Below are positions 17,712-48,482 of a DNA stretch of 48,844 nucleotides, in pieces. Origin of the DNA: a virus; the IMG/VR virus record IMGVR_UViG_3300023180_000095, positions 1 to 48,844 of that record. One strand, 5' to 3'. The notes under the pieces were generated by a model that was not told the origin of the DNA, made no database searches, and saw only the letters and a list, made by a program, of their open reading frames with translations. Every line of letters starts with the position of its first letter. Within the stretch, counting starts at the first letter, position 1. Both the position numbers and the translations under genes were made by a program.

Positions 17712-17715
17712 ACTA

Positions 17716-17740
17716 CGGTCCCCTTCGGGGGACCGTTTTT
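17716..17740 (+). terminator. strong Rho-independent terminator with UUCG loop
   Basis: CGGTCCCC (17716-17723) pairs with GGGGACCG (17728-17735) around a TTCG tetraloop and is followed by TTTTT. It separates gp8 from the DUF4815 gene, so it splits the baseplate cluster into two transcription units or limits read-through into the next gene. Confidence 0.95.
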
Positions 17741-46800: not shown

Positions 46801-48234
46801 ATGGCCGCACCAACGCTAAGAATTAAAAGAGGTACTACTTCTGTAGCATCTTCAGTTGCTGTCCCCAATACAGTAGCGGGTGAACCTATTGTTCGTTATA
46901 ACACCGATCAAGGCAAGTATGCCGGTATCACCGAATTTTATGTTGGTGATGACGGAGCAACAACTTCTAAGTTGATTGCTGACTCAGGCGCAACAGCTGC
47001 TGCTAATGAAATTCTAACAGCATTTACTGTTGAAACTGCTGATGGCAATGCTGACGGAGTAGATGCTAGCCTTACTTTAACCAGTCAAGATATCACTGGT
47101 TCTGCTATTACCGTCCAACCACCTAGCAATCTTGCTGCTGATTACACCTTAACTTTACCAGCTAATGATGGAGATTCAGGTCAAGTTCTACAGACAGATG
47201 GTTCTGGTGTTCTAACTTGGGTAGCACAAACTGCTGGATTCTCTGGGTTTGATATTGCTGCCGATACTGGCACTGCCGAAACTGTTGTTTCGGCAGATAC
47301 AATAACCTTCACGGGTGGAACTGGTATTGCTACAACAGTAAGTGCTTCTGATACTATTACTATTGCTATTGATAGCACTGTAGTAACCACTGCTGATACT
47401 GGTTCAGTTACCAGCACGATGATTTCTGATGACACCATCGTAAATGCTGACATCAATGCTTCTGCTGGTATCGCTTTCTCTAAGTTAGCGTCATTAACAA
47501 GTGGTAATATTCTTGTTGGTAATGGATCAAATGTTGCTACTTCAGTAGCTGCTTCTGGTGATGTTACAATCAGCAATGCTGGTGTTTTCTCGGTTAACAG
47601 TGTTCAGGCAAATTCAGTTGCTCTTGGAACAGATACCACTGGTAACTATGTTCAGTCTGTAACTACTGCTGCTGATTCTGGTCTTACAGGTGGTCAAGCT
47701 GCTGCCGAAGGAACTGATTCTCCCCTTGCTCTTAAGAACGCCGCTAACTTAACTGGCAACACAGTTCTTAAGTGGGATAGCGGCAATAGTCAGTTAACTG
47801 ATAGTCTTATTACTGACGACGGATCTACAGTAACCATTACAGGCAACTTTACCGTTACTGGTACTACCACAACCGCTAGTGTAGAGACAACTAACACTCA
47901 GATTACTGACGCACTGATTGAGTTAGCAAACGGAACTACAGGACCAGCTTCCTTAGATGCTGGTCTAGTTATCGAACGTGGCGATGATTCCAATGTATTC
48001 ATTGGTTTTGACGAAGGACTCGATTTATTCGTTGCTGGTACTACAACAATCACCGGAACAGGCTCCGATGCTGCTCCAACACCAGTTGCTTTCTTAGCAC
48101 TTCAGTACAATGTAACTGATACTGCTGGAGCTAATGAAGCTGTAGTTAGCTACCTTGCTGCTGGTGCTGCCCCAGATGGTGCTACTGCTGGTAGATATCT
48201 TCAAAACATCACAGTTGACGCTGGCACATATTGA
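46801..48234 (+). CDS. fibre-type protein, 477 aa
   Basis: The N-terminus MAAPTLRIKRGTTSVASSVA is a known phage fibre start with an R-(R/K)-x-(G/S)-x-T motif and a following FYVGDDG strand. It is related to the N-terminus of the truncated gene at 48483. The body is rich in Thr, Ala, Ser and Asp with fibre-typical units: ADYTLTLPANDGDSGQVLQT (about 112-131), SNSQLTD-type and TVTITGNFTVTGTTTTASVE (about 343-362), then IELANGTTGPASLDAGLVIE. The C-terminus is NITVDAGTY. It lacks an obvious catalytic domain. The gene is followed by a gene whose start is buried in a long hairpin. Likely role: part of a host-contacting fibre or collar whisker. Confidence 0.78.
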   Translation: MAAPTLRIKRGTTSVASSVAVPNTVAGEPIVRYNTDQGKYAGITEFYVGDDGATTSKLIADSGATAAANEILTAFTVETADGNADGVDASLTLTSQDITGSAITVQPPSNLAADYTLTLPANDGDSGQVLQTDGSGVLTWVAQTAGFSGFDIAADTGTAETVVSADTITFTGGTGIATTVSASDTITIAIDSTVVTTADTGSVTSTMISDDTIVNADINASAGIAFSKLASLTSGNILVGNGSNVATSVAASGDVTISNAGVFSVNSVQANSVALGTDTTGNYVQSVTTAADSGLTGGQAAAEGTDSPLALKNAANLTGNTVLKWDSGNSQLTDSLITDDGSTVTITGNFTVTGTTTTASVETTNTQITDALIELANGTTGPASLDAGLVIERGDDSNVFIGFDEGLDLFVAGTTTITGTGSDAAPTPVAFLALQYNVTDTAGANEAVVSYLAAGAAPDGATAGRYLQNITVDAGTY

Positions 48235-48240
48235 TAAATA
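48233..48240 (+). promoter_or_regulatory. candidate late promoter before the 67-aa gene
   Basis: GATAAATA overlaps the stop codon of the 477-aa gene and ends 20 bases before ATG 48261. A transcript starting 5 to 12 bases downstream would begin at or just before the long inverted repeat at 48252-48333. Confidence 0.55.
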
Positions 48241-48251
48241 GATTTATATGA

Positions 48252-48333
48252 GATTTTGGTATGAATGAAGTTCAAGTAGATTATGCTCTTCTAGTAGAGG
48301 TTATGACTGAAGAACTTCATTCATACCAGAGTC
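48252..48333 (+). promoter_or_regulatory. 22-bp inverted repeat enclosing the start codon at 48261
   Basis: Arm 1 (48252-48273) and arm 2 (48312-48333) are reverse complements over 22 positions, with two G-U pairs; 17 of these are consecutive Watson-Crick pairs (48257-48273 with 48312-48328). The loop is 38 bases (48274-48311). The ATG at 48261 and the bases just 5' of it lie inside arm 1. An in-frame ATG at 48303 lies in the loop. Folded RNA would hide the annotated start, so this may control translation. Confidence 0.85.
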
Positions 48334-48464
48334 AGATCATTGCAATGAAAGCAAAGATCAAGGCATACGACAGGGCACTCACGGAAGCGTTAAATAATGC
48401 TTCGCCCAAAACCACATCCCGTAAAAAGTCTGTAGATACAGATAAGGATGCTGGTACATTTTAA
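48261..48464 (+). CDS. 67-aa protein with predicted helix, basic tail
   Basis: The product starts MNEVQVDYALLVEVMTEELH, continues as a helix to about residue 47, then has a Ser/Thr/Lys-rich tail (TTSRKKSVDTDKDAGTF). It has no membrane segment. I do not recognise it. The start is not certain: ATG 48261 has only a weak TGAG upstream and lies inside the 22-bp hairpin, while ATG 48303 (residue 15 of this reading) is in the loop with GAGG two bases upstream, too close for ideal pairing. The next gene starts 18 bases after its stop, past the palindrome CCTATATAGG (48465-48474). Confidence 0.6.
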   Translation: MNEVQVDYALLVEVMTEELHSYQSQIIAMKAKIKAYDRALTEALNNASPKTTSRKKSVDTDKDAGTF

Positions 48465-48482
48465 CCTATATAGGTATCACCA

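Follow-up and report, generated by a model that had tools for sequence, protein, structure and literature searches.

The 67-aa gene and its surroundings

The window, by which we mean the whole stretch of 48,844 bases analyzed here, is the virus record IMGVR_UViG_3300023180_000095 of IMG/VR and derives from environmental DNA. It stops 380 bases past a gene for a 67-aa protein (Table 1). In related contigs, this gene is followed by more structural genes and then by T4-type neck genes, hence the window's virus, as judged from gene order, is a T4-like phage. A late-promoter box of the T4 gp55 type, GATAAATA, is co-oriented with the structural genes and lies, as the original prediction had it, 11 bases before the first arm of a hairpin. 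Since the contig ends so close to the gene, the extent of the operon was taken from relatives: L010, L008, L034, and L029 have their next co-oriented late box 5.5–5.8 kb downstream, before the first neck gene. On this arrangement, a late operon begins with the 67-aa gene as its first cistron.

The gene is present in 20 IMG/VR contigs and, with the window included, in 14 distinct sequences. No homologues were found among 50,697 phage records, and no cultured phage gave a match. Searches of PDB and Pfam with the 67-aa protein returned weak coiled-coil or chance matches only, and none to an endonuclease. PHM1_094 of phage P-HM1, a 68-aa gene in the same place, was rejected (profile match not significant at E 0.78; its start is open, at 3.1 kcal/mol), as was a genome-collection match, L045, which covers 25 residues of a longer, unrelated protein. 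The dN/dS ratio in Table 1 indicates that the protein is under purifying selection and must therefore be translated. Readthrough or frameshifting from the upstream gene was also considered and rejected, given its tandem TGA TAA stops and a further stop in the -1 frame.

Table 1. Features at and around the 67-aa gene (positions in the window).
Feature	Position	Strand	Basis or remark
Late-promoter box GATAAATA (T4 gp55-type)	48233..48240	+	In nearly all 14 distinct sequences; variant in L039
Possible 6-codon upstream reading frame MRFWYE*, stop overlapping gene start	48248..48268	+	Sequence; also in L008, not in most relatives
Hairpin arm 1, contains ATG	48252..48273	+	Inverted repeat and folding
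67-aa gene	48261..48464	+	Single long helix predicted (residues 8-47); dN/dS 0.23 (window vs L008)
Hairpin loop, 38 nt	48274..48311	+	7/38 sites differ from L008 (arms, 1/44)
Hairpin arm 2, codons 18-24	48312..48333	+	Inverted repeat and folding
Second hairpin in gene (GAAGCGTT AAAT AATGCTTC)	48384..48403	+	Recurs at this place in relatives, where paired changes occur
Third small hairpin (TCTGT AGAT ACAGA)	48429..48442	+	Fully paired in nearly all relatives

A stem enclosing the start codon

The original prediction described two complementary 22-base arms that form 20 Watson-Crick and two G-U pairs, with 17 consecutive Watson-Crick pairs, around a 38-base loop, and we confirmed both the coordinates and the pairing. 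It was also right that the start ATG (48261–48263) lies inside arm 1, that arm 2 is coding sequence, and that a second in-frame ATG (48303–48305) sits in the loop. Such a stem had been called very unlikely by chance, and our simulations agree: when the entire 48.8-kb window was simulated 60 times under a Markov model, perfect inverted repeats enclosing a short loop never exceeded 15 bp, and the longest one per run was usually 11 bp. The stem is the longest high-identity inverted repeat of the window (runner-up, 21 nt at 76%). Folded as RNA, the hairpin has an energy of -39.5 kcal/mol (z -7.0; 0/200 shuffles), and the 225-nt late RNA as a whole gave a z of -8.05. Four further contigs from four IMG/VR samples carry the same stem, five contigs in all, hence we rejected an assembly or amplification artifact. 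Rfam gave no match above the gathering score, only sub-threshold matches to microRNA hairpins of the kind expected for any long stem. Neither is the stem an intrinsic terminator, as no T run follows it.

The T4 late box spans -13 to -6 (PMC1524935), and by this geometry late transcription is predicted to start at 48246, 6 nt before arm 1. The in silico energy required to open the start region was 22.6 kcal/mol for the late RNA and 21.8 kcal/mol for the read-through RNA, compared with 2.7–14.1 kcal/mol for 18 other genes of the window and 0.6–16.1 kcal/mol for 60 genes of two cyanophages. Because the predicted start precedes the whole stem, both RNAs are predicted to be closed. As a positive control, the same calculation for T4 gene e yielded 2.0–4.3 kcal/mol for the late RNA vs 15.9 kcal/mol for the read-through RNA, in accord with its published switch (PMC3014915).

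In T4, the genes e, soc, 49, and I-TevI have start-region hairpins that are bypassed from a late promoter (PMC3014915, PMC2988022). The 67-aa gene resembles the e/soc type in being a late gene of a T4-like phage, with a gp55-type box upstream of the gene, its start codon or ribosome site predicted by folding to be held in a strong helix near the late promoter, and its read-through RNA predicted to be closed. Unlike in e and soc, however, where the late RNA lacks the 5' arm, the late promoter of the 67-aa gene lies upstream of the complete stem; its near-perfect 22-bp stem and coding arm 2 further set it apart from gene e. A switch of the gene e type, in which the read-through RNA alone is closed and a late RNA beginning within arm 1 is open, has these precedents and fits four related sequences (see below), but the start predicted in the window is upstream of arm 1. 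Even a 5' end at 48258 leaves 15 kcal/mol, and only an end past the ATG frees the start. We therefore regard such a switch as very unlikely in the window.

We also considered whether a ribosome on the MRFWYE* frame (ATG at 48248) melts arm 1 and reinitiates at the overlapping ATG at 48261. The upstream ATG would occupy position +3 in the late RNA as predicted, and both it and the stop that overlaps the gene start are shared with L008. Against this, the frame is absent in most relatives and has no visible Shine-Dalgarno sequence; moreover, it is beyond test by comparison because it lies mostly within the conserved arm sequence. Coupling of this kind appears highly improbable.

Conservation of the stem and other hairpins in relatives

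The 22-bp stem is found only in the window, in two contigs with an identical protein sequence, and in the 84%-identical L003/L004 type. Between the two haplotypes that carry it, 1 of the 44 arm sites differs, compared with 28 of 166 sites in the gene outside the arms (p=0.012), and the sole arm difference, A-U to G-U, keeps the pairing. With only two such haplotypes, the stem itself shows no compensatory change. The remaining lineages pair 8–15 of the 22 positions, and L037 and L038 are unstructured, hence the claim that the coding sequence is constrained to keep the pairing is not generally true and applies to the window's lineage alone. The proposal of translational gating fared better: the start region is sealed (~22 kcal/mol to open) and the arms are more conserved, although the pairing is again not general across lineages. 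A DNA processing or recombination site, suggested as another option, is disfavored because the relatives do not conserve the sequence. For 8 of 10 relatives, the sense strand showed a stronger folding bias than the antisense strand did, which favors RNA over DNA.

Could the stem be a mutational product, that is, an imperfect inverted repeat that was perfected by template switching and then tolerated without function? Template switching is known to create perfect stems (PMC8794818), and L032 and L039, with 13 Watson-Crick pairs at the 22 positions, might resemble an imperfect precursor. However, the arms are more strongly conserved than other parts of the gene, and structure recurs in most other lineages. 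Furthermore, comparison with relatives suggests that arm 1 is ancestral in its inner half and arm 2 in its outer half, hence a single copying event does not account for both. We consider this origin improbable.

Most other lineages have different, weaker hairpins near the same place. In each of the ten sequences found first, codons 1–35 were more structured than synonymous recodings (z -1.7 to -5.3; 60 interior windows as background, mean -0.58, sd 1.0); the null applied the window's codon usage to all relatives, and the lineages are not independent. Of the four found later, L039 and L040 were strongly structured as well (z -3.4 and -5.2). By contrast, L037 and L038 have no hairpin at the gene start (z -0.3 and +0.5 in the codon null); since both have the gene nonetheless, not every relative needs a brake.

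In one related group, codons 11–13 pair with codons 23–25, with 95% of cells paired vs 23–42% in slid controls, and three pairs changed on both sides. The compensatory changes that the original prediction proposed to look for are thus present in the relatives' own hairpin and not in the 22-bp stem. A leader inverted repeat of 10–11 bp occurs in L029, L033, L034, L040, L028, and L039 (P 0.003 or less). The leader-palindrome clade, which also contains L027 without the palindrome, is supported at 93/97 in a protein tree that, being so short, does not firmly resolve where the hairpin types belong and supports this clade only. In L029, L033, L034, and L040, the left arm of the repeat is within the promoter, and by T4 box spacing their late RNA would lack it. 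The calculated opening energies of these four are 0.8–4.1 kcal/mol for the late RNA and 8.6–9.0 kcal/mol for the read-through RNA; on this model, closure would be confined to the read-through RNA, as it is in T4 gene e.

Further into the gene, the second hairpin (codons 42–48) is paired at or near the maximum in most sequences. In L031 (5039–5083, minus strand), two perfect coding hairpins with 4-nt loops are adjacent, GAGAGTATT-AGAT-AATACTCTC and GAAACTCT-TAAA-AGAGTTTC, the latter exemplifying the paired changes of the second hairpin. At codons ~42–60 of L027, an insertion repeats the hairpin unit (AAGCGTTAGATAACGCTT after GGAAACATTAGATAATGTTTCC), a sequence pattern that suggests that a hairpin module was duplicated. 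The third hairpin was not significantly conserved under the codon null (P ~0.25 in each sequence). We also noted that the QVDY codons at 48273–48284 keep their synonymous bases (CAA GTA GAT TAY) in nearly all relatives at a protein identity of 51–84%, possibly reflecting a nucleotide-level signal after the start.

A candidate translational brake

We tentatively favor the reading that the hairpin in the 5' end of the late mRNA acts as a translational brake on the 67-aa cistron, with initiation on nascent RNA; to us this is a serious possibility, though still somewhat short of probable. The hairpin would mask the ribosome-binding region of the first cistron together with its start codon, and, going by T4 promoter geometry, late and read-through RNAs would both carry it. 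We infer that the stem lowers translation. In a growing transcript, the calculated opening energy stays at or below 3 kcal/mol until the RNA reaches 48319 and exceeds 20 kcal/mol only at 48333; a start that is open up to the former point and closed by the latter favors initiation on nascent RNA. Ribosomes would thus load mainly before arm 2 emerges, and the finished RNA would be largely silent for this cistron. First-cistron output would be low, while the downstream structural genes of the operon would be made in bulk. A stricter form of this proposal, in which all full-length transcripts have a closed first cistron, whose translation depends solely on nascent-RNA loading, with relatives keeping the T4-type promoter-bypass switch, is unlikely in our view. 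If it were true, the length of the loop would act as a timer on output.

A duplex of 22 bp has the length that RNase III requires. The stem might accordingly be a stabilizer or an RNase III-like processing site, at the 5' end of the operon mRNA or the 3' end of the upstream mRNA, that includes the start codon by accident. Its location would suit this, as it begins 18 nt past the stop codon of the upstream gene and, by the predicted start, 7 nt into the late RNA, with 5.5–5.8 kb of operon ahead in relatives and no further late box. Nevertheless, relatives with the same operon have shorter stems elsewhere or none, cleavage would take off the start of a gene under purifying selection, and there is no U-tract terminator here on the + strand. 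We deem this role doubtful.

Returning to the translational brake, other start-region hairpins offer partial parallels. Those of T4 genes 25 and 38 are split ribosome-site hairpins, between Shine-Dalgarno and AUG, that help initiation (PMC3014915). As in those genes, the hairpin of the 67-aa gene falls where translation of a structural-module gene starts, and the gene 25 hairpin is likewise confined to one lineage; the AUG of the 67-aa gene, however, is itself within the stem. Hairpins in the start regions of the homing-endonuclease genes Aeh1 mobE and T4 segB restrain translation (PMC2988022), as is predicted for the hairpin here, where the 67-aa product is instead a predicted single helix with no endonuclease match. 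Overall, the hairpin appears to be an uncommon version of an established means of holding back protein synthesis.

One small late gene thus presents a natural series: no hairpin, a coding hairpin, a promoter-overlapping palindrome, and a full seal of the start codon. This series makes it possible to test how RNA structure is used by phages to tune a late operon's first cistron. T4-type hairpin control is known mainly from enterobacterial phages, and whether it reaches beyond them can be tested in the same series.

Two more structures were noted in the window. Directly past the stop codon of the 67-aa gene (48465–48474) is a palindrome, CCTANATAGG, which is kept in most relatives and includes the AGG of the next gene's likely ribosome site. 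The other, at 17715–17736 between two large structural genes, is a strong, GC-rich hairpin capped by a TTCG loop; it probably represents a terminator or the end of an mRNA.
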